The notes under the pieces are model-generated. The model did not search any database. It was not told the origin of the DNA and saw only the letters and a list, made by a program, of their open reading frames with translations. From Paludibaculum fermentans (lineage in GTDB: Bacteria; Acidobacteriota; Terriglobia; Bryobacterales; Bryobacteraceae), in contig NZ_CP063849.1 of assembly GCF_015277775.1 (NCBI RefSeq), positions 1,364,001 through 1,428,000 on the forward strand: a DNA stretch of 64,000 nt. The letters run 5' to 3'. A program made the position numbers and the translations under genes. Each line of letters begins with the position of its first letter. Positions within the stretch are counted from its first letter, which is position 1. Below are positions 28,398 to 64,000 of the stretch, in pieces.

Positions 28398-29441
28398 TCA
28401 GTAGCCGCCTTCCTCGAGCTGCACTTTTCCGGCGAACTTCCGGTAGAGGAAGACGGAATAGGAAGCGGCCAGGGCCATGCCCGGCGCGAACCAGATGAGG
28501 CCAATGCGCAGGCCGTAGGCGGGCGCGCTGGCGTTGTGGATGGTGAGGCTCAGGGCCGGGTCGGTGTTGGCGGGTAGAACATAAGGGAAAACTCCGAACA
28601 CGACGCTGGTGAGCATGCCGATGACGAAGACTGCTGAACTGACGAAGGCCTTGAGGTCTTCCTGGCGGCTCCAGAAGAGGAAGGCTCCGGTGAGGCCGGC
28701 CAGCGCCAGCAGCGGGAAGACGAAACCCACCGGCATGGCGGCGAAGCTGCGGCTGAGTTGGGGCTGGATGCGGAAGCTGACCACGGTGACGAGCACGGTG
28801 AAGGCGGCGACGGCGAACCAGGACAGGCGGGCGATGCGGCGGGCGCGTGTGCGCACCCCGTTCTCGGTCTTATAGGCGACCCAGAGGGCACCGTGCTGGG
28901 TGAGGGTAAAGAAGGCGAAAAGGCCCACCAGGATGGTGTACCAGTCGAGGATGCCGGGATTCGGGCCGGGCAGCCAATCCGTCCACAGGGGCAGGAAGAA
29001 CTCGCCGGAGGCGTCCAACGGCACGCCGCGCACGACGTTGCCGAGGGCGACCCCGAAGAAGATGGCGAGCAGTCCGCTGGAGAAGCAGAAGACGGTATCC
29101 CAGAGCGGCTTCCACACCGGGTTGTCGATGTGGTTGCGGAATTCCACGGAGATGCCGCGCAGGATGAGCAGCCACAGCACCATCATGAGCGGCAGGTAGA
29201 AGCCGCTGAAGGAGGAGGCGTAGAGGGCGGGGAAGGCGAAGTAGAGCGCTCCGCCGCCGGCGAGCAACCAGACTTCGTTGCCGTCCCACACGGGTCCGAT
29301 GGACTTGATGACGGCGCGGCGTTCGCGATCTGTGCGGGCCACGCCGAGATGGACAATGCCGGCGCCGAGGTCAAAGCCATCGAGCACCACATACATGGCG
29401 ACCATGACGGCGACGATGCAAAACCAGATGACAGGTAGCAT
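28398..29441 (-). CDS. cydB: Cytochrome bd ubiquinol oxidase subunit II
   Basis: 347 residues with about eight transmembrane helices. The N-terminus LPVIWFCIVAVMVAMYVVLDGFDLGAGIVHLG is the standard CydB opening, followed by IGPVWDGNEVWLLAGGGALYFAFP, another family hallmark. It is the partner of CydA in the quinol:O2 oxidoreductase of the inner membrane. An AAAGGAGATT ribosome site sits before the ATG, 17 bp after the cydA stop. Confidence 0.96.
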   Translation of the reverse strand: MLPVIWFCIVAVMVAMYVVLDGFDLGAGIVHLGVARTDRERRAVIKSIGPVWDGNEVWLLAGGGALYFAFPALYASSFSGFYLPLMMVLWLLILRGISVEFRNHIDNPVWKPLWDTVFCFSSGLLAIFFGVALGNVVRGVPLDASGEFFLPLWTDWLPGPNPGILDWYTILVGLFAFFTLTQHGALWVAYKTENGVRTRARRIARLSWFAVAAFTVLVTVVSFRIQPQLSRSFAAMPVGFVFPLLALAGLTGAFLFWSRQEDLKAFVSSAVFVIGMLTSVVFGVFPYVLPANTDPALSLTIHNASAPAYGLRIGLIWFAPGMALAASYSVFLYRKFAGKVQLEEGGY

Positions 29442-29458
29442 GGTTTCTGGAATCTCCT

Positions 29459-30793
29459 TTAGTGGGCAGCCGGAGCGGAGCCGGGGCCGTGCTCGATTTC
29501 ACGCCAGATGAGAAACAGACCGAGCATGAGCAGGACGGAATAGATGCCCATGAAGCCGAACAAAGTGAACATGGCATTGCCGCTGGAGACGCGGTTGGAG
29601 AAGCCGGCGGTGGTCCGCATGAGGCCGTAGATGAGCCAGGGTTGGCGGCCGACTTCGGCAGTCATCCAGCCGGCGGTGTTGGCCACGTAAGGAAGCGGCA
29701 TGGCCAGCAGCAGCGCCCAGAGCAGGGGTTTGAAGGTAAAGAGCTTGCCGCGCCACAACTGCAGGGCGGAGAGCCCCATGATGGCGATGAAGATGGTGCC
29801 GAGGCCCACCATGATGTGGAACGAGTAGAAGAGCAGGGGGATGTTGTCCGGCCAGTTCTCTTTAGGGAAGGCGTCGAGGCCGCGCACTTCGGCATCCCAG
29901 CGCTTGTGAACGATCATGCTGAGGACGCCGGGCAGGACAAAGGGGTTGTCGAGGCGGCGTTGTTCGACGTCGGGCTGGCCCAGGATGGCCATTGGCGCGG
30001 CGGGTCCGGTTTCAAAGTGGCCTTCCATGGCGGCCAGCGTGGGTCCCTGATGGCGGGCGACAAGAGCACCCTGCTGGTCACCGGTGGGGAAGGCGACCAG
30101 TAGCGTGGCCAGGAGCCCCGTGGTGACGGAGACGCGCAGGAACGTTCGGCCATAGTCCTGGTGTTTGCCCATGAGCAGGTAGAACGCGCCGAGGCTGGCC
30201 ATGGCGAAGCAGCCGGTGACGACGCCGCCCAGGATGGTATGCATGAACTGCCAGGCGGCCCAGTCGTTGAAAATCAGGGCGCTCCAACTGTTAAGAATGA
30301 TCTCGCCGTGGGGGCCGAGTTCATAGCCGACGGGGCGCTGCATCCAGGCATCGGTGGCCACGATGAGGTAGCCGGAGAGCCAACTGCCGACCCAGACGGC
30401 CAGGGCGGAGAACCAGTGGCCGACGCGGCCCATGATCTTCTCACCGAAGATTAACAGGCCCAAAAAGCTGCTTTCCAGGAAAAATGAGTACAGGCCCTCC
30501 ATGCCGAGGGTGTGGCCGATGACGCCTCCCGCGGCTTTGGAGAAGCGCGACCAGTTCGTGCCGAACTGGAATTCCATGGGGATGCCGGTGACGACGCCGA
30601 GAGCGAAGTTGACGGCGAAGATCTTGGCCCAGAAGCGGGCGGTATCGTTATAGTGTTCGTTGCCCGTGCGGAGGGCCATCGTCTTGAGGATGAAGATCAG
30701 AAGAGCCAGGCCTAGCGTGAGCTGGACGAAGAGGTAGTGAAACGTGATGGTAAACGCGAAGTGAAAACGATGAAGAGCCAGAGCGGAGTCCAT
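29459..30793 (-). CDS. cydA: Cytochrome bd ubiquinol oxidase subunit I
   Basis: 444 residues, nine predicted helices. Family features: HRFHFAFTITFHYLFVQLTLG with the heme b595 His, the heme b558 His in the WQFMHTILGG helix, FPTGDQQ at the Q-loop start and GWMTAEVGRQPW. The Q loop is short, as in the cyanide-insensitive (CIO) branch rather than E. coli CydA (522 aa). It reduces O2 to water using quinol with high affinity. It heads a six-gene minus-strand run with cydB, a DsbA-like protein, an M28 peptidase, a hypothetical and a LarA-domain protein. A sigma-54-like site lies just upstream. Confidence 0.96.
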   Translation of the reverse strand: MDSALALHRFHFAFTITFHYLFVQLTLGLALLIFILKTMALRTGNEHYNDTARFWAKIFAVNFALGVVTGIPMEFQFGTNWSRFSKAAGGVIGHTLGMEGLYSFFLESSFLGLLIFGEKIMGRVGHWFSALAVWVGSWLSGYLIVATDAWMQRPVGYELGPHGEIILNSWSALIFNDWAAWQFMHTILGGVVTGCFAMASLGAFYLLMGKHQDYGRTFLRVSVTTGLLATLLVAFPTGDQQGALVARHQGPTLAAMEGHFETGPAAPMAILGQPDVEQRRLDNPFVLPGVLSMIVHKRWDAEVRGLDAFPKENWPDNIPLLFYSFHIMVGLGTIFIAIMGLSALQLWRGKLFTFKPLLWALLLAMPLPYVANTAGWMTAEVGRQPWLIYGLMRTTAGFSNRVSSGNAMFTLFGFMGIYSVLLMLGLFLIWREIEHGPGSAPAAH

Positions 30794-43870: not shown

Positions 43871-44959
43871 CTAGCGGCGCGTCCGGAGATACGCCAGCAG
43901 GTCCGACATGTCGGTGTTCTCGAATCGCGGCCATTTGATGCCCTGGCTCGCCATCTGCTTTTGCATGGACGGGCCGTGGCCCCAGAGGACCGAGATCATC
44001 TCGTAAGAGTTGGCCCGTTCGCCCATCGCCAGTTTCGGCGCCAGGCCCTTGTCGTGGCAGTTGCCGCAGCCGCGGGCTTCGAAGACCTTCTGGCCGCGGG
44101 CAGCCAGGCCGTCATCGGTGGCGAACTGCAGGGCCCAGATGTAGCCGACCAGGCGGCGCATCTCTTCGGGCAACAGTTCGGACTGCTGCTTCATTTTGGA
44201 AGAGTGGTTCCACATCGACGCGGCGAATTCGCTGGCCGTGCGCATGGAGGACTTCTTCGCCAGGCTGTTTTCGCCGACGTGGCAGCCGATGCAGCCCTTG
44301 GCCTGGAACAGGGTTTCGCCCGTGGTCGGCGAGGCCGGCGCGAACTCCGGCTTGAGGTTCTTCGTCTGCGGGAGGTTCTGGAGATAGACCGCGATGTCGT
44401 TCATCTCCAGGGCGGTGAGGATGGGCATCTTCATGCCCTTGGCGCCCATCGTGTCCCGCATCTTGGGCGAGTGGTTCCACATCTGGCGAGCCAGTTCGAT
44501 GGGATCGGTAACCGATGCCCACTTCATGACCGGTGTGCCGCCCAGCCCGTTGGTGGAGGTGATGTTGTGGCATTCCGCGCAGCCCTTGGAGACGAAAAGC
44601 TGGCGGCCGCGGCCGGCGTCGCCCTTCTTCTCGAAGTAGCGGGCGGCAAAGAAGTAAGCGAACAGATCGGCCGATTGCTGGCTGTCCAGCTTGGGCTTGG
44701 TCAGGTTCGCCTTTTCCATGGCAGACCACATCTGGGGCGCGTGATTCCACATCAGGGCCGCCAGATCGGCGGGGGAGTAGCCCCGGCTGGCGCGTTTGCC
44801 CAGATCCGGAGCCATTTTTCCGCCTTCGCCGTTTATGCTATGGCAGGTTTCGCAGTTTTGACTTTTGAAGAGCGCCGCGCCGCGCGAGGAGTCGCCCACC
44901 AGGACGGCTGCCTGCGAGATGACCGCGCCGGCGACCAACCCTATTAAGATTCGCTTCAT
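43871..44959 (-). CDS. Periplasmic c-type cytochrome with four tandem monoheme modules
   Basis: 362 residues with a signal peptide (RILIGLVAGAVISQAA). Four repeats of about 85 aa each carry one heme site (CETCH, CAECH, CIGCH, CGNCH) and, about 40 residues later, a WNHxxxM or WGHxxxM motif (WNHAPQM, WNHSPKM, WNHSSKM, WGHGPSM) whose Met may be the sixth heme ligand. Each module also ends in an L-A-Y-like helix. It is the last gene of the mtr-like operon, 16 bp after the beta-barrel gene, and may shuttle electrons between the inner membrane and the MtrA-type protein. Confidence 0.9.
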   Translation of the reverse strand: MKRILIGLVAGAVISQAAVLVGDSSRGAALFKSQNCETCHSINGEGGKMAPDLGKRASRGYSPADLAALMWNHAPQMWSAMEKANLTKPKLDSQQSADLFAYFFAARYFEKKGDAGRGRQLFVSKGCAECHNITSTNGLGGTPVMKWASVTDPIELARQMWNHSPKMRDTMGAKGMKMPILTALEMNDIAVYLQNLPQTKNLKPEFAPASPTTGETLFQAKGCIGCHVGENSLAKKSSMRTASEFAASMWNHSSKMKQQSELLPEEMRRLVGYIWALQFATDDGLAARGQKVFEARGCGNCHDKGLAPKLAMGERANSYEMISVLWGHGPSMQKQMASQGIKWPRFENTDMSDLLAYLRTRR

Positions 44960-44975
44960 TGTGCTCCTCCGGTCC

Positions 44976-46973
44976 TTACATCACGAACCGCACGCCGCCT
45001 GTGAACATGTTCGAGCGGAAGCCTTCGTAGTAGTAGTTAGGCTGATGCAGCCCATAGTACTTCCACTCCGAGAAGAACTCCAGCTTGGGTGTCACGGGGA
45101 GTTGGATGCGGCCCTGCGGCTGATAGTAGTTCGACGGGCGGGTGCCCGCCGTCGTGACGAATGAGCCGCCAAAGGTCAGATGTCCACTGTAGTTCCTGCC
45201 GAGCGGCAATCGCAAGTCGGCCATGAGCGTGCCGCTGTGCGCGTTGTCGCGGTAGAGCGATTGAACCGGAAAGAGCCCCAGGGGATAGAGGTAGTTGAAG
45301 TCGCTCTTGATGGTGGAGCGGGTGTAGTCCGCGATGATGCTGATGCGCTTGCCGTCTTTCGGCATCCATTGCAGGTTGGCCGAAGTCGCCTGGGAAGTCG
45401 CGTCGAGATTGATGCCCGTGGTTGGGTTCTTGTTGTCGAACCGGCTGTAGAGCAGGTTGAAGAACAGGCTCTTGGGCAAGCTGAGGCGGCTCTGGAGGTT
45501 GATGCGTTTGGTGTCCATCAGGCCACTGCGGTAGTAGGTTTTCACGCCGTCGGCCAGTTCGAAGTCGCCGGTGAGGGTCAACCGGGTGACGGGCCGGGCG
45601 AGGAAGCCGAACAAGCCGACGTGGCGCTGCAGTTCGCCGCGCTCAGTGGGATTGTCGGTGATGAACTGGTTGGCCTTGAGGATGACACTGCCCCATTCGT
45701 AGCGGTAGCCGCCGCGAACGGTGTACTTCTTCGAGATGTCGTAGAGCGCTTCCACCTGCTGCCGGTTGCGGGTGACATCGAGGCGCTCGCCATCGGTGCC
45801 GGTAACCGGTGTGCCGGTGGCGGCCGTGGTGGTGAGGAAGTAGGAGGTGGTGAGGACGCCGCTGCCGCTGGTGTGGAAACGGTCGGTCTCCCAGGTGGTG
45901 CGGACGCGCAGCCGTTCCATGGGCCGGACCTCGGCGCTGGCATTGGCCGAGGTGTGCGGCATGCGGACGTTGCCGTAATAGGAGTCGGTGATCTGCGGGA
46001 TGATCAGCAGGGGATCGTCACCCGAAACCAGGCTGCCTTTCAACGTGTCGTTGTAGGTGGCGTAGGTCTTGGGGGCGGTCCGGACGAGTGTGCCGGAGAG
46101 GTCGAGCCAGTTCCACGGATTGGCGGTGAGCAGCACCTTGGTATAGGCGCCATTGCCGCGGACGCGGTAGTACTGGGCTCCGCTCAGCAGGTAAAGCGAC
46201 TGGCCCAGATAGGGGCTGGTGCGGTTGCCGGTGAGCTTCTCGGTGGAGTAGACGCCCTGGTCGTCCTTGAAGTTCGTGCCGCCTTCTTCCAGCGTCACGT
46301 GCCAGCGGTTCATTTCGATGCGGACGCCGCCGCGCACTTCGTTCATGCCCCAGGTGATGAGATTGCGCAGCGGATACTCGTTCATGTCGGCGACCAGCGT
46401 GGTGATGCCGTTGCCGCTGTCGGAGTTGCGCGAGTAGCCCAGGTAGGGCATGATGCGGGCGCCCGGGAACAAGGTGAGCTCGTTCTCGAAGTTGCGGCGC
46501 GTGGTGTCGTAGGAACGCTGGTTCATGTAGACACCCTTGTTCGCGGTGACATCGGCGAAAGAGGGCAGGTAGTTGTAGTAGGCGATGTTCGAGTAGCTGC
46601 CGACGTAGCGGTAGATGCCGCGTTTCTGCAGGTCGAAGCGGGCCGTATTGTAAGGATCGCCGCCCCAGTTGTAGCCCTGGATGCGCAGGCTGGTAAACAG
46701 GCGGTTGGCCGCCGGTTCATAGCCGATATCCATGCCCAGCAGGCGGGTGCCCTGGCTGAGGTTGACCAGGCTGCGATAGGTATTGAAGTCGCCGGCGCGC
46801 CCGACCCAGCGTGCGCCGACGTCGATATACCCGGTGAGTTCCTTCTCTTTTTGAGGCTGCGGCGATTCAGCGGCCGCCTTCTCGTCTTTCTTTTCGGTCG
46901 TCGCTTCCTTTTTGTCGGCAGACTCCTGCGCCAGAAGCGTCAGCGGCAGAAGTAATGCCAGCCAGATTCTCAT
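44976..46973 (-). CDS. mtrB: MtrB/PioB-type outer-membrane beta-barrel of the porin-cytochrome conduit
   Basis: 665 residues from the ATG at 46973 (signal MRIWLALLLPLTLLA, then a charged linker); the frame is open to 47132 but lacks homologous sequence there. The body alternates amphipathic strands rich in Tyr, Arg and Asn, such as GYIDVGARWVG, RGIYRYVGSYSNIAYYNYLP, LMADLRLPLGRNYSGHLTFGG and the final MFTGGVRFVM, as expected for about 26-28 strands. No cysteine was seen, so the N-terminal CxxC of Shewanella MtrB is absent. It should sheath the periplasmic decaheme protein. The start overlaps the mtrA-type stop by 4 bp. Confidence 0.86.
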   Translation of the reverse strand: MRIWLALLLPLTLLAQESADKKEATTEKKDEKAAAESPQPQKEKELTGYIDVGARWVGRAGDFNTYRSLVNLSQGTRLLGMDIGYEPAANRLFTSLRIQGYNWGGDPYNTARFDLQKRGIYRYVGSYSNIAYYNYLPSFADVTANKGVYMNQRSYDTTRRNFENELTLFPGARIMPYLGYSRNSDSGNGITTLVADMNEYPLRNLITWGMNEVRGGVRIEMNRWHVTLEEGGTNFKDDQGVYSTEKLTGNRTSPYLGQSLYLLSGAQYYRVRGNGAYTKVLLTANPWNWLDLSGTLVRTAPKTYATYNDTLKGSLVSGDDPLLIIPQITDSYYGNVRMPHTSANASAEVRPMERLRVRTTWETDRFHTSGSGVLTTSYFLTTTAATGTPVTGTDGERLDVTRNRQQVEALYDISKKYTVRGGYRYEWGSVILKANQFITDNPTERGELQRHVGLFGFLARPVTRLTLTGDFELADGVKTYYRSGLMDTKRINLQSRLSLPKSLFFNLLYSRFDNKNPTTGINLDATSQATSANLQWMPKDGKRISIIADYTRSTIKSDFNYLYPLGLFPVQSLYRDNAHSGTLMADLRLPLGRNYSGHLTFGGSFVTTAGTRPSNYYQPQGRIQLPVTPKLEFFSEWKYYGLHQPNYYYEGFRSNMFTGGVRFVM

Positions 46974-47938
46974 CGCAGCAACGCCCCATTCACGTTCGAA
47001 CCGTGGATCTTCTGATGACAGGTGGTGCAGTTGCGGAACCGCGGGCTGCGCATGTCGTGCAGCGCCGGAGGAATTCCGCCCACCGTCGTGGCCGCCGGGG
47101 GTGACTGGATATTGGAGTGGCATTCCAGGCACAACGGGGCGACTTCAGCCCGCTTGAGCATGCGCGGATTGGAGGATCCATGCGGTTCGTGGCAGGTGGC
47201 GCAGGGTTCATTGCGGCTGGGCGCGTGTTCGAAGACGAACGGGCCGCGCTTGTCGGCATGGCAGGCAAAGCAACCCGGCTCATTTCCACCCGAAAGCCGC
47301 AGGTTGCGGTTCAGGTTGCTGGCATGCGGGTTGTGGCAACCGGTGCAGCTCATGGCGCCTTCCGGGATGCGGTGATGATTGGGCTTGGCGAAACTGGCGG
47401 CCACATCACGATGGCAGCTGGAGCACTTCTGATTGATGCCGGCGGCCCGCTTGAACTGGTACTCGCTCGACTCCTCGCCCTGCTTGTGCATGTTGTGGCA
47501 GGAGGTGCAAGGTACGTTGTTGCGGGCGTGGCTGCTCTGCAACCGGCCTACGTGTGTCTGCTGATTCTTATGGCAGTTGAGGCACATGGCGTCGATCGCC
47601 GAGGGCTTCATCTGCTTCGGGCTGCGGATGTCGTCGGCCGAATTGGTCTCGGCGTGGACCGACCCCGGTCCGTGACACGATTCGCAGGCTTTGGTCTCCC
47701 AACCGCGCTTCTTGTTGGTTTCGAGGATGGAATGAGGATTCTTTTTAAAAGCAGTGCTGATGTCCTCGTGACAACCCGCGCAGGTCTCCGACCCTATGAA
47801 TTCTTTTTTCGCGGGCGCGGCAGGCTTTGCATCCTGCTGCGCCGCGGATTTGTCCGGCGGCTTCTGATCCTGTGACGCACCCGCCGCCAAAACCGACAGC
47901 GCCACGGCCGCGGTCCACGGCAATAACCGGAAAGTCAT
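46970..47938 (-). CDS. mtrA: DmsE/MtrA-family periplasmic decaheme c-type cytochrome
   Basis: 322 residues with a signal peptide (LLPWTAAVALSVLAAGAS). Ten CxxCH sites were counted: CAGCH, CESCH, CLNCH, CTSCH, CSSCH, CTGCH, CFACH, CATCH, CLECH and CTTCH, with additional His residues between them for bis-His ligation. The spacing, the DMRSPRFRNCTTCHQKIHGSN ending and the length match the DmsE/MtrA/PioA family, whose members insert into the beta-barrel and form a wire of hemes across the outer membrane. The gene order mtrC-mtrA-mtrB is the same as in the Shewanella core. Confidence 0.94.
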   Translation of the reverse strand: MTFRLLPWTAAVALSVLAAGASQDQKPPDKSAAQQDAKPAAPAKKEFIGSETCAGCHEDISTAFKKNPHSILETNKKRGWETKACESCHGPGSVHAETNSADDIRSPKQMKPSAIDAMCLNCHKNQQTHVGRLQSSHARNNVPCTSCHNMHKQGEESSEYQFKRAAGINQKCSSCHRDVAASFAKPNHHRIPEGAMSCTGCHNPHASNLNRNLRLSGGNEPGCFACHADKRGPFVFEHAPSRNEPCATCHEPHGSSNPRMLKRAEVAPLCLECHSNIQSPPAATTVGGIPPALHDMRSPRFRNCTTCHQKIHGSNVNGALLR

Positions 47939-47961
47939 GAGTTCTCCCGATCTGAGAAAAG

Positions 47962-47987
47962 GGGCAGGCCCCTTGCGAGACCTGCCC
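47962..47987 (-). terminator. Intra-operon stem-loop between mtrC- and mtrA-type genes
   Basis: On the minus strand GGGCAGG (complement of 47981-47987) and CCTGCCC (complement of 47962-47968) form a 7-bp GC stem, followed by CCTTTTCTC. It is the only structure in the 65-bp gap. It could act as a leaky terminator or 3'-end protector giving more mtrC than mtrAB message. Confidence 0.5.
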
Positions 47988-48003
47988 GTAATTGAGTTTT
48001 ACC

Positions 48004-50133
48004 TTACTGAGCGTGCACCTTGCTGACGGCGAATTCAGCGCTGGGCCCGTGACAGGTCCCGCAGCTTTCACCCAGCGTGGTGGTGTTGGCCAGGGCATGC
48101 GACGCGGCATCCTTGCTCGCGTGGCAGCTCAGGCAGGCAGCCGACGTCGTACCGACGGGGCTCAGCCAGCCTCTCGGATCCTGGACAGGCAGTACGCCGA
48201 TTGCCGGCGCGTTCTGCGTGTTGGTGGAGTGGCACATGTTGCAGTTGGTGACGGAAGCGGGCTCAGGGAACCCGACATCGTTGAAGTTGTTGGCGGAGTT
48301 GCCGAAGCCGTAGATGGTGAAATCACGCGGCTGTTCCTTGCCGGTGTGGATGCGGTGCACCATCGAGGCCATGCTGATGGACTCGTTCGGGGCTTGGGCA
48401 GCCGGACGGCGGGCGGCGTCGGTCATGTTGGGGTTGTGGCAGATCACGCAATTCTGGATCTCATTGCGGTTTTCGCCATGCAGGGACAGGTTGTAGTGGC
48501 AGTTGTTGCAGGTGGCCGTTTCCACGATGTGGCGGCGGGTGACAACATCCGTGCCATCGACGGAGAAGTACTTCATATCATTGGGGATATTGACTTCGTA
48601 GGTGCGCTGCTTCTGCGTGCCGGAGAGGATGGTTTCATCCGAGCGGCCTTCGGCGGCGAACACCCAGGTGCCCTTGGCGTCGGCCGGGATGGCCGTGCTG
48701 AAGGTGTACTTATAGGTGCCCGGTCCACCGGTCATGCTGGTAACAGTAATGTTGTCCTGCACATAGCCGTTGGTGCCGGTGGCGCCGATGCCGGTGCCGT
48801 AGTCGGTGGTGGGACCGGCGAGGGTGAAGGCCAGACGGCCGCGGCCTGCGCCAGGGATGAGTTCCTTGATGTCCATGTCGGCGCCGGAGCGATCCTTCAG
48901 GGAGACGGTGAGAACCGGCTTCTGGCCCGGCTTGGCGTTGTCGATGCTGAGGATCTTCACGACGGCGCCGCGGGTGAGCGAGGAGGCCTGTTCGACCACA
49001 TGCGCGCCCTTGATGGAAGCGTCGAAGTCGATTTCGCCCTGCGGGATGTGGCAGGTGGAGCACTGGTTGTCAGTGGCCTGGGGCAGACCGACGTGGCCGG
49101 CGCCCGTGGTGAAGTTCACCGTGTCATGGCAGGCTCCGCAAGCGGCGCGGGAGGGCTGGGTGAGCCAGGCGTCTTTCTGCGTGGCGGTGTTCTTCTGCTC
49201 GTGGCACCACTGGCAGTTGTTGGGCTTCGACGGCATGTTGACGTCGGAGAAGTCGCTGACGGCATTGCCGAAACCGATGATCTGATACTTGCCGCCCGCC
49301 ACGACACTGGCGAGGCTGCTGCCGGCATGGATCTTGTGAGCCATCTGGGTCAGGTCGATCGTGTTGTCGGTTTCCGGGTTGGTGTTCTGCACGGTGGTGG
49401 TGCCCAGGGTGTAGCCCGGTGCATGGCACATCACGCAGAGCTCGACGCCCTTGCGGGAGCCGCCATGGAAGGACAGGTCGTCATGGCACTTGTTGCAGGA
49501 GGAGGTGCTGATGACGTCGCGGACCTTCTTCACAGCCGTACCGTCCGGCACAAAGCTGTAGGTGGCGCTGGCATAGTTGGTGCCCAGGTCGAATTCGGTC
49601 AGGTTGCGGCTGCCGTACACAGCGATCGTGTGCGTGGCGGTCTTGTCATAGCCCGAAGGCAGCTTCGTCCCGAAGGTATAGACGTATTCGCCATCGGCGA
49701 CCTTCGCGAACGATCCGCCGGCATCGGCACCGGCCTGACGGGCCTGCTTGCCGGCCGTCGGGGCGTAGGTGCTGGTCTTCAGGCGGGTTGTGTAGGCCTG
49801 ATAGAACTTGTTGTTGTTCGGAATCGTGGCCAGGATAAAGCTGGCGCTGACTGCGCCCGGCGTATTGATTCCTTCGCGTTCCAGGGCGGCGCCCTTGGGA
49901 TCGGTCATCTTGAACCGAACCTTCACGGTGCCGTCGGACGCAATCTCATGACTCACGATCGTGAATACAAGGCCTGGACGGACGAAGTTCACCAAAGCTT
50001 CATCCGCGTAGAATGCCTTGTTCCGCTCAGTGAAGGGCGGTTTGGTGGAGCTGACCAGCGCGGTGGATGCTAACAGCACCATCACCACGAGAGTCCACTT
50101 CATCCAGCCCTTGGAGCGTTGATGCAAGCGCAT
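48004..50133 (-). CDS. mtrC: OmcA/MtrC-family decaheme c-type cytochrome (outer surface)
   Basis: 709 residues from the ATG at 50133, picked because AAGGAG lies 6-7 bp ahead; the frame opens 27 bp earlier. Ten CxxCH sites fall in two groups of five: CNKCH, CVMCH, CQWCH, CGACH, CSTCH (about 213-362) and CNNCH, CVICH, CNMCH, CLSCH, CGTCH (about 541-690), each after a beta-rich domain, the MtrC layout. MAHKIHAG and MVHRIHTGKE, which recur in both halves, supply distal His ligands. The signal peptide (WTLVVMVLLASTALVSS) has no lipobox cysteine, so unlike Shewanella MtrC it is probably not lipid-anchored. First gene of the operon; likely terminal reductase on the cell surface. Confidence 0.93.
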   Translation of the reverse strand: MRLHQRSKGWMKWTLVVMVLLASTALVSSTKPPFTERNKAFYADEALVNFVRPGLVFTIVSHEIASDGTVKVRFKMTDPKGAALEREGINTPGAVSASFILATIPNNNKFYQAYTTRLKTSTYAPTAGKQARQAGADAGGSFAKVADGEYVYTFGTKLPSGYDKTATHTIAVYGSRNLTEFDLGTNYASATYSFVPDGTAVKKVRDVISTSSCNKCHDDLSFHGGSRKGVELCVMCHAPGYTLGTTTVQNTNPETDNTIDLTQMAHKIHAGSSLASVVAGGKYQIIGFGNAVSDFSDVNMPSKPNNCQWCHEQKNTATQKDAWLTQPSRAACGACHDTVNFTTGAGHVGLPQATDNQCSTCHIPQGEIDFDASIKGAHVVEQASSLTRGAVVKILSIDNAKPGQKPVLTVSLKDRSGADMDIKELIPGAGRGRLAFTLAGPTTDYGTGIGATGTNGYVQDNITVTSMTGGPGTYKYTFSTAIPADAKGTWVFAAEGRSDETILSGTQKQRTYEVNIPNDMKYFSVDGTDVVTRRHIVETATCNNCHYNLSLHGENRNEIQNCVICHNPNMTDAARRPAAQAPNESISMASMVHRIHTGKEQPRDFTIYGFGNSANNFNDVGFPEPASVTNCNMCHSTNTQNAPAIGVLPVQDPRGWLSPVGTTSAACLSCHASKDAASHALANTTTLGESCGTCHGPSAEFAVSKVHAQ

Positions 50134-50210
50134 GTTGCTCTCCTTATCTATAATTTCCACTCACTACAGCGTGACCGCCGTTGCCGCAATACACGGCTCA
50201 GCATCTGCAT

Positions 50211-50226
50211 AGCATGATCCAGGCCA
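50211..50226 (-). promoter_or_regulatory. Sigma-54 (-24/-12) promoter of the mtr-like operon
   Basis: Minus strand TGGCCTGGATCATGCT: GG and GC exactly 10 bp apart, TGGC-Y-G in the -24 box and TGCT in the -12 box, with two mismatches to TGGCACGN4TTGCW. Transcription would begin about 65 bp before the mtrC ATG. The flanking 50227-50290 is AT-rich, suited to an activator and IHF. Confidence 0.6.
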
Positions 50227-62130: not shown

Positions 62131-64000
62131 ATGAATCTGACGAAAACCGCCCGGTGGGCCGGGCTGGCGTTCCTCGTCCTGCTCGTCAACAGCTTCTACT
62201 TGCTGGCCTTTGCGACGCCCGGCATCTTCTACATGACCAACGTGTTAGTCCACATCGGGCTGGGCACGGTGTGGGCGGCGGCGCTGCTGTATCTGGCTTT
62301 TACCTCGCCTCAGTACAGGCGCATGGGTTTGTACGTGGTGGCGGCCATCGCCACGGGTGGGGTGCTGTGCGTTGTGGGGGCGGCCCGCGAGTTCAACTGG
62401 CTGCTGTGGACCCACATCGGCACCGGGCTGCTGGGCGCGCTGGCGATCGTGGTGGAATCGAAACGGCGCTCGGCGCAACTGGTATTTGCCTGCAGCGCGG
62501 TGTTCTGCGTTTCAGCGCTGGGCTACCAGAAGGTCTTTCCGGAACACCAGCTCAAGGTGACGAACACGGGCTATGTGCCGGCGTCGATGGAACAGGAGGG
62601 CGGCGGGCCGAAGACGCCGTTCTGGCCGTCGTCCTCGAAGACGAACGTGGGCGGGGTGATTCCGTCGAACTTCTTCATGGATTCAAAGTTCTGCGGCGAG
62701 TGCCACAAGGACATCTACCAGCAGTGGCAGTCGTCGATGCACCACTTCTCGTCGTTCAACAACAAGTACTACTCGAAGGCGATCGAGTATATGCAGGACA
62801 TCTCGGGGACGCGCGGGTCGAAGTGGTGCGCCGGGTGCCACGACCACGCGGTGTTCTTCAACGGCCGGTTTGAGAAGCCCATCAAGGAGCAACTGGAGAC
62901 GCCGGAGGCCCAAAACGGACTGGGCTGTGTGTCGTGCCATTCGATCACGCATGTCGACTCCACAATGGGCAATGGCGGGTTCACGATCGAATATCCGAAG
63001 CTGCACGAGCTGGCTTCGTCGAAGAATCCCATTATTCACTGGGTGGACCGGTTCCTGACCAAGGTGGAGCCGGAGCCGCACCGCCGCACCTTCCTGAAGC
63101 CCTTCATGAAGGACAGCGCGGAGTTTTGTTCGACGTGCCACAAAGTGCATCTCGACGAGCCGGTGAACAATTACCGCTGGATGCGCGGATTCAACGACTA
63201 CGACAACTGGCAGGCGTCGGGAGTGAGCGGGCAGGGTGCGCGATCGTTCTACTATCCCGACAAGTCGAAGACGTGTTCGGGCTGCCACATGGATCTGGTG
63301 CCGTCGAAGGATCCGGGCAACCGGGACGGCATGGTGCACAACCACCGGTTCGCGGCGGCGAATACGGCTGTGCCGTTTGTGAATGGCGACAAGACTCAAC
63401 TGGCGGCGGTGCAGGGGTTCCTGCAGTCGGGCTTTATCTCGGTGGACATCTTCGCGGCGGCGCCGGCGGGCGAGGCTCCGCAGACGCAGATGCAGCGGCG
63501 GGCCGATGCGGGTCCGCAGGCGATGACGACGTTCGCGGTGGGGGAAGAGGCGGAGCAGTCGTCCTCGGCGTACATGATCCGCGAGGTGTCGGAACTGGCG
63601 GCGCCGTTGGACAAGACTTCGACGAAGTTCCAGCCGGGTTCGACCATCCGCATGGATGTGGTGGTGAGGACAAAGAAGATCGGGCATTTCTTCCCGGGCG
63701 GCACGGTGGATGCGTTCGATATCTGGGTGGAGCTGGAAGGGCACGATGCGACGGGCAAGCAGGTGTTCCTGTCGGGCAACCTGCAGAACCCGAAGCAGGG
63801 CAACCTGGCTCCGGTTGAGCCGGGGGCGCACTTCTATAAGTCGTACATGCTGGACGGCGATTCGAACCCGATCAACAAGCGGAATGCATGGCAGGCGCGG
63901 TCGTTGCTGTATGTGCGGCTGATTCCGCCGGGCGCAGCGGATGTGGCGCACTACCGGGTGAAGATTCCCAAGGATGCGAAGGGGCCGATCACGTTCACGG
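62131..64000 (+). CDS. Membrane-anchored multiheme c-type cytochrome (C-terminus beyond window)
   Basis: 623 residues are visible and the frame is open at the edge. Four or five transmembrane helices occupy residues 10-135 (GLAFLVLLVNSFYLLAFA, VLVHIGLGTVWAAALLYLAF, LYVVAAIATGGVLCVVGAA, LLWTHIGTGLLGALAIVV). The extracytoplasmic part has five heme sites so far: CGECH, CAGCH, CVSCH, CSTCH and CSGCH, with many free His (SSMHHFSSF, VHNHRFAAAN). ECHKDIYQQWQSSMH is typical of cytochrome c554-like domains. A beta-rich region without hemes follows (GSTIRMDVVVRTKKIGHFFPGG). One base separates it from the TPR/ASPIC gene. Probably a quinol- or partner-linked electron carrier. Confidence 0.88.
   Translation, partial: MNLTKTARWAGLAFLVLLVNSFYLLAFATPGIFYMTNVLVHIGLGTVWAAALLYLAFTSPQYRRMGLYVVAAIATGGVLCVVGAAREFNWLLWTHIGTGLLGALAIVVESKRRSAQLVFACSAVFCVSALGYQKVFPEHQLKVTNTGYVPASMEQEGGGPKTPFWPSSSKTNVGGVIPSNFFMDSKFCGECHKDIYQQWQSSMHHFSSFNNKYYSKAIEYMQDISGTRGSKWCAGCHDHAVFFNGRFEKPIKEQLETPEAQNGLGCVSCHSITHVDSTMGNGGFTIEYPKLHELASSKNPIIHWVDRFLTKVEPEPHRRTFLKPFMKDSAEFCSTCHKVHLDEPVNNYRWMRGFNDYDNWQASGVSGQGARSFYYPDKSKTCSGCHMDLVPSKDPGNRDGMVHNHRFAAANTAVPFVNGDKTQLAAVQGFLQSGFISVDIFAAAPAGEAPQTQMQRRADAGPQAMTTFAVGEEAEQSSSAYMIREVSELAAPLDKTSTKFQPGSTIRMDVVVRTKKIGHFFPGGTVDAFDIWVELEGHDATGKQVFLSGNLQNPKQGNLAPVEPGAHFYKSYMLDGDSNPINKRNAWQARSLLYVRLIPPGAADVAHYRVKIPKDAKGPITFT

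Follow-up and report, generated by a model that had tools for sequence, protein, structure and literature searches.

We analyzed a 64,000-nucleotide stretch of the Paludibaculum fermentans genome (the window; contig NZ_CP063849.1, positions 1,364,001 to 1,428,000), in which four genes make up a cluster whose features support an MtrCAB-type outer-membrane electron conduit plus a four-module cytochrome c. In a sample of 120 genomes of the order Bryobacterales, the co-occurrence of the barrel gene of this conduit with a gene for an ImcH-like inner-membrane cytochrome was near-obligate. We consider it likely that the Bryobacterales conduit, published as Group 5 of the MtrCAB systems, is fed by ImcH homologues, perhaps together with CbcL homologues, and would carry electrons outward to Fe(III) or another acceptor.

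An ImcH-like gene was found in 69 of the 72 genomes with an orthologous barrel, whereas it was present in only 6 of the 48 genomes without one (Fisher's test, p = 3e-22). Among near-complete genomes (completeness of 90% or more, contamination of 5% or less), the proportions were 67/70 and 4/42, respectively; the other genomes were removed by hand, in agreement with computed tallies. The orthologous set was drawn by hand, after the gap had been seen, at the gap between best E values of 1.6e-51 and about 1e-24. A second, weaker type of barrel match, with a hand-drawn limit of E 1e-10 or better, was present in 56 of the 120 genomes and tracked ImcH more loosely (43/56 genomes with it and 32/64 without it). 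Regardless of type, 89 genomes had a barrel match with an E value of at most 1e-10. The CbcL-like gene was carried by 35 of the 72 barrel genomes and 2 of the 48 others, and 36 of these 37 CbcL genomes also had ImcH.

The cytochrome bd subunit CydA, used as a control, also showed an association with the barrel when all genomes were taken together (39/72 versus 9/48, p = 1e-4), which indicates that lineage effects exist; the test within genera is the one to trust. When ImcH was shuffled within genera (109 of the 120 genomes, the 11 without a listed genus being left out), the observed agreement was reached in 0 of 20,000 shuffles, whereas for cytochrome bd it was reached in 11,326 of 20,000. The same trend was visible in single genera, where ImcH was found in genomes with and without the barrel at 4/4 versus 0/9 (g2), 7/7 versus 0/3 (g9), 8/10 versus 0/2 (g10), 1/1 versus 0/3 (g8) and 1/1 versus 0/1 (g34); the exceptions were g15 and g26.

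The two genes were also often physically linked. Of the 69 genomes having both, 30 carried ImcH on the contig of the barrel and no more than 10.5 kilobases (kb) from it, and ImcH was inside the mtr locus in 28 of 80 named loci around the barrel, which served as the synteny sample and many of which were cut by contig ends. Coordinates placed these 28 copies in four arrangements: 12 on the same strand downstream of the tetrahaem gene or mtrB, 10 on the same strand upstream of mtrC, 4 as a CbcL-ImcH pair downstream, and 2 on the other strand. In an MtrB tree built by a quick method from 73 of the 80 loci and the window barrel (the other 7 barrels were cut, were at most 600 residues long or contained N), the label linked or unlinked changed at least five times, with 18 rows unlabelled owing to short flanks; the clade of the window was unlinked. 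Linkage has thus changed several times and is therefore not explained by a single accident.

In P. fermentans itself, the ImcH-like gene adjoins a CbcL-like gene (pair at C1:1683615-1686758). The assembly comprises 9,532,094 bases in two contigs, the larger of 9,476,802; the published genome of strain P105T consists of 9,476,802 and 55,292 base pairs (PMC8407742). The ImcH-like protein matched PF03264 (NapC/NirT) over residues 108–183 with 26.3 bits (cut-off 24.1), and its combination of CX3CH and CX2CH motifs was shared by all 28 ImcH copies within mtr loci. ImcH homologues are described, in the available text of a 2018 survey, as having three N-terminal helices, an atypical CX3CH adjoining the membrane part, and five to nine CX2CH; CbcL homologues are described as combining an N-terminal half that bears nine CX2CH with a six-helix, b-type membrane half resembling HydC/FdnI (PMC6295460). 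Hydropathy scanning at 1.6 gave two hydrophobic windows in the P. fermentans ImcH copy against the three published helices; of the 28 locus copies, 22 gave three windows, 5 gave two, and a single cut copy gave one. The CbcL-like protein gave four windows, against six helices in the description. Set beside the published descriptions, the P. fermentans pair fits those of ImcH and CbcL homologues in its haem motifs and, for the CbcL-like protein, in its b561-type domain.

Table 1. Genes of the conduit cluster and of the candidate inner-membrane pair in P. fermentans. Coordinates without a prefix are window positions.
Feature	Coordinates	Strand	Description
mtrC-like OmcA/MtrC-family decahaem cytochrome	48004..50133	-	709 aa, two pentahaem blocks, hydrophobic N-terminus
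mtrA-like DmsE-family decahaem cytochrome	46970..47938	-	322 aa, predicted inside barrel
mtrB-like outer-membrane barrel	44976..46973	-	665 aa, no cysteine
Four-module class I cytochrome c, four-haem	43871..44959	-	362 aa, predicted periplasmic, the published Group 5 tetrahaem
ImcH-like	C1:1683615-1685051		478 aa, one CX3CH (residue 133) and five CX2CH
CbcL-like	C1:1685097-1686758		553 aa, nine CX2CH and PF01292 cytochrome b561 domain

The three mtr genes of the window lay next to one another in the order mtrC-mtrA-mtrB, followed by the tetrahaem gene, whose start (44959) is 16 bases from the end of mtrB (44976). Direct counting of CXXCH haem-binding motifs gave 24 over the cluster (10, 10, 0 and 4), and every cysteine of the three cytochromes fell within such a motif (exactly 20 in MtrC, 20 in MtrA and 8 in the tetrahaem protein). 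MtrC scored 514.6 bits against TIGR03507 (cut-off 209.3), matched PF22113 in two stretches, and matched MtrF (3PMQ, 2.2e-26) and 6r2q_C (9.3e-12) in a PDB sequence search. MtrA scored 242.6 bits against TIGR03508 (cut-off 192.2) and matched chain A of the solved Mtr complex 6R2Q (6r2q_A, 5.3e-36), and the tetrahaem protein contained repeats of PF00034 and PF13442. Proteins for cytochrome c assembly were present in the genome. The original prediction, made from the letters of the window, had named four consecutive minus-strand genes with 24 haem sites, decahaem members of the OmcA/MtrC and DmsE/MtrA families, a cysteine-free barrel and a four-module cytochrome, in the gene order of Shewanella; motif and residue counts, domain matches and the two scores above curated cut-offs bore out all of these points. 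It had placed the cluster at 43871-50226. The genes do lie there, but coding ends at 50133 if mtrC starts at the ATG, or at 50160 if it starts at a GTG giving 718 residues, and not at 50226.

The ATG of mtrB overlaps the mtrA stop codon as ATGA and is very likely the true start, which gives 665 rather than 718 residues. The window barrel matched no family in Pfam or NCBIfam; PF11854 (MtrB_PioB) matched 16 of 74 aligned barrel orthologues. Searched by sequence against the PDB, the barrel on its own returned no porin of this kind, and the barrel profile returned just two insignificant matches (E 0.28 and 0.9). An AlphaFold2 model built from the 74 sequences had 28 strands, a mean predicted local distance difference test score (pLDDT) of 87.5 and a predicted template modelling score (pTM) of 0.77. 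When this model was compared by Foldseek with 350,542 library chains, MtrB of the solved complex ranked first (6r2q_B, E 1.4e-15, template modelling (TM) score 0.66). Siderophore receptors came next, with E values starting at 8e-10, and no query TM score exceeded 0.47 among the 49 further chains listed. The expectation of a closed porin of 26–28 strands thus agreed with a 28-strand model whose nearest structure is the MtrB of 6R2Q. The model of the barrel by itself points to an MtrB-like outer-membrane porin, and MtrA would sit inside it.

The arrangement around the barrel was kept across Bryobacterales. Among the 80 loci, an MtrA match lay upstream of MtrB in 79, 66 loci had an MtrC match upstream (only a fragment in L100) and 4 had one downstream only, and the tetrahaem match lay downstream in 46 (partial in L065). 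Where both flanks of the barrel extended over about 6 kb (45 loci), the corresponding numbers were 45 for MtrA, 38 for MtrC upstream and 27 for the tetrahaem protein. This synteny ruled out a chance arrangement; chance CXXCH matches were likewise ruled out, since families, synteny and fold agree. Counted by genome, with paralogues at other sites included, tetrahaem matches with an E value of at most 1e-40 were found in 56 of the 72 barrel genomes and 7 of the 48 others.

A full-length CbcL-like gene was found in 5 of the 80 loci (L078, L079, L086, L091 and L103). Of the other matches to the CbcL query, those in L077 and L121 were rejected as CbcL, since they fell on the 10-haem MtrA frame, and those in L065, L083, L096 and L119 covered only the multihaem half of the query. 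Three of the five loci, L078, L079 and L086, are closely related to one another and carry mtrAB, the tetrahaem gene, cbcL and imcH in a row, with no MtrC match within the locus. Judged from the locus alone, this arrangement is possibly an MtrC-free form.

The window MtrC has a hydrophobic N-terminus and no cysteine outside CXXCH, and hence no lipobox. A narrow lipobox pattern near the start was absent from 63 of the 66 MtrC orthologue frames not cut by contig ends, 4 of which do not have 10 CXXCH. One of the three matches lay before the likely start, whereas those in L104 and L112, which are close relatives, could be real; some orthologues (for example, L064) carry a cysteine in the hydrophobic stretch outside the lipobox pattern. 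Because of the cysteine count and the lipobox scan, lipid anchoring is unlikely for the window MtrC and probably rare among the MtrC orthologues of the group. Binding to MtrAB may hold the protein in place. The Shewanella MtrC, in contrast, is a lipoprotein; the available account of Group 5 does not list such an anchor among the features of that group.

Extracellular respiration in this organism had been put forward by the original prediction as unexpected, and this did not hold. P. fermentans P105T is a heterotroph that reduces Fe(III) (PMC8407742), and MtrCAB of Bryobacterales has been published: a 2022 survey describes mtrCAB in five Acidobacteriia, either Bryobacterales or unclassified, as Group 5 (PMC8805035, available text). 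The cluster is therefore no surprise, and we rejected the idea that it is. According to the same text, all Group 5 members have "a predicted periplasmic tetraheme cytochrome immediately downstream of mtrB", and no inner-membrane quinone oxidoreductase was found near their clusters, the search being confined to the locus; Paludibaculum is not named in its main text. The system described here agrees with the available account of Group 5 in host order, in the presence of mtrC, mtrA and mtrB, in the tetrahaem gene just downstream of mtrB and in the lack of an adjacent mtrC duplicate. It differs in the ImcH-like gene, which 28 of 80 loci and 69 of 72 barrel genomes carry, where the survey reported no nearby oxidoreductase. 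The 2018 survey, in its available text, reports no mtrAB adjacent to imcH (PMC6295460), whereas in Bryobacterales the two are often adjacent. The available text of a further study reports imcH and cbcL transcripts in many metagenome-assembled genomes and conduit genes in Holophaga and Geothrix (Acidobacteriota), with no statement there on adjacency (PMC11748539). A search of titles and partial abstracts, with subscription journals and supplements outside its reach, found no report of a link between ImcH and MtrCAB in acidobacteria. The conduit is thus already known, and the ImcH wiring is new to the extent of the literature searched.

Compared with the Shewanella MtrCAB and MtrDEF systems (6R2Q and 3PMQ), the cluster has the same 10 + 10 haems, MtrA and MtrC sequence matches and an MtrB fold match; the gene order C-A-B is also shared, as given in the available text of PMC8805035. 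The differences are the absence of a lipobox cysteine from MtrC, the four-haem class I cytochrome inside the cluster, and the ImcH- and CbcL-type genes in place of CymA, which Shewanella uses according to that text. With the PioAB, MtoAB and DmsEF systems the cluster shares a decahaem cytochrome of the MtrA/DmsE family and a barrel of the MtrB/PioB type. The cluster differs in also having MtrC and the tetrahaem gene, and none of its four genes encodes a dimethyl sulfoxide (DMSO) reductase. With Geobacter ImcH and CbcL, the P. fermentans pair shares the CX3CH plus CX2CH pattern and the nine CX2CH with a b561-type domain, respectively.

Co-occurrence and linkage supply a candidate inner-membrane electron donor for the acidobacterial MtrCAB, which the 2022 survey left without one. 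In the reading we favor, the ImcH-like protein, perhaps together with the adjacent CbcL-like protein, would oxidize quinol at the inner membrane. Electrons would then cross the periplasm, possibly via the four-haem cytochrome, enter MtrA sitting inside MtrB, and exit through MtrC, with Fe(III) or some other acceptor outside the cell receiving them. Overall, the flow would be outward, as an anaerobic respiration or as a sink for fermentation. The near-constant pairing of this wire with a Geobacter-type partner in the relatives suggests how electrons reach the conduit, and it predicts an outward flow that is testable in a cultured and sequenced strain. On balance we also favor, with less assurance, a broader picture for the group: a hybrid respiration in which a Geobacter-type ImcH, accompanied by CbcL in about half of the genomes, would feed a lineage-specific four-haem shuttle and then a Shewanella-type MtrCAB whose MtrC mostly lacks a lipid anchor. 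The pairing would have been kept or lost as a unit across the order and repeatedly brought into one locus, and outward flow would be a core trait of much of this soil group. If such a chain works in many Bryobacterales, of which 72 of 120 sampled genomes have the barrel, it would be relevant to the reduction of iron and humic substances in soils, peat and groundwater.

Several observations weigh against the ImcH-fed outward conduit. The ImcH-like gene of P. fermentans lies 273 kb from mtrCAB. Of the 48 genomes that lack the barrel, 6 nevertheless have ImcH; conversely, ImcH is missing from 3 of the 72 barrel genomes, one of which has CbcL. The surface location of MtrC is not certain because no lipid anchor was recognized. 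The tetrahaem protein is common and not universal in the wider sample, and its place in the electron chain is therefore a guess. Finally, the same genome has another MtrAB pair and another MtrC-family gene, which could account for the Fe(III) phenotype instead.

Three other explanations were weighed. The one that survives best differs from the favored reading in the acceptor alone: MtrC would be a general surface reductase, acting on soluble or humic acceptors (or DMSO, iodate and the like) and not on iron minerals. The assignment of MtrA to the DmsE subfamily model TIGR03508 agrees with this, as do the many acceptors respired through Shewanella MtrCAB (PMC8805035, available text) and the groundwater, fen, bog and palsa samples among the record titles of relatives. 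However, Pfam scans of 13 window proteins revealed no molybdopterin reductase, and the phenotype tested in the strain is Fe(III) reduction (PMC8407742). We regard this variant as plausible, though less likely than not.

It is improbable that the conduit works inward, in the manner of PioAB or MtoAB, oxidizing extracellular Fe(II) or another donor and passing the electrons to the respiratory chain. Cytochrome bd oxidase genes do lie about 13 kb from the cluster, but the cluster contains MtrC, which PioAB and MtoAB are not known to have, and no RuBisCO large subunit was found in P. fermentans. MtrAB-type conduits work in both directions, and PioA and MtoA do not form a clade separate from MtrA (PMC8805035, available text). 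Against this stand an Fe(III)-reducing, heterotrophic host rather than an Fe(II) oxidizer (PMC8407742) and an almost obligate partner from the ImcH family, which the available text of PMC6295460 implicates only in quinol oxidation. An origin of the Fe(III) phenotype in the second MtrAB pair (C1:2122894-2125847) or in other multihaem cytochromes, with the window cluster minor or oxygen-related, also seems unlikely. The genome does hold a further 10-haem MtrA-like gene with its barrel, as well as a further gene of the MtrC family, but the association of the second barrel type with ImcH is much looser and no MtrC-like frame was found beside the second pair in the 19 kb read.

The MtrA-like gene of the second pair (10 haems, TIGR03508 260.7 bits) is accompanied by a 731-residue barrel frame on the minus strand (L037:7895-10848). 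The second OmcA/MtrC-family decahaem gene (TIGR03507 424.8 bits; C1:6381702, minus strand, L042:8703-10709) adjoins, by eye, a GroEL-like frame, and no other CXXCH gene was seen among the frames of at least 150 residues in the surrounding 19.5 kb. A 932-residue protein with 10 CXXCH, also matching beta-propeller families, is encoded at C1:6463357 on the plus strand (L044:8858-11656). Within the window, the genes for cytochrome bd subunits I and II occupy 28398-30793 on the minus strand (PF01654, 479 bits; PF02322, 296 bits), and a second CydA is encoded at C1:6210889. An open frame on the plus strand from about 62131 to 64000, running past the end of the window, has a hydrophobic N-terminus and five CXXCH and is probably another multihaem cytochrome.

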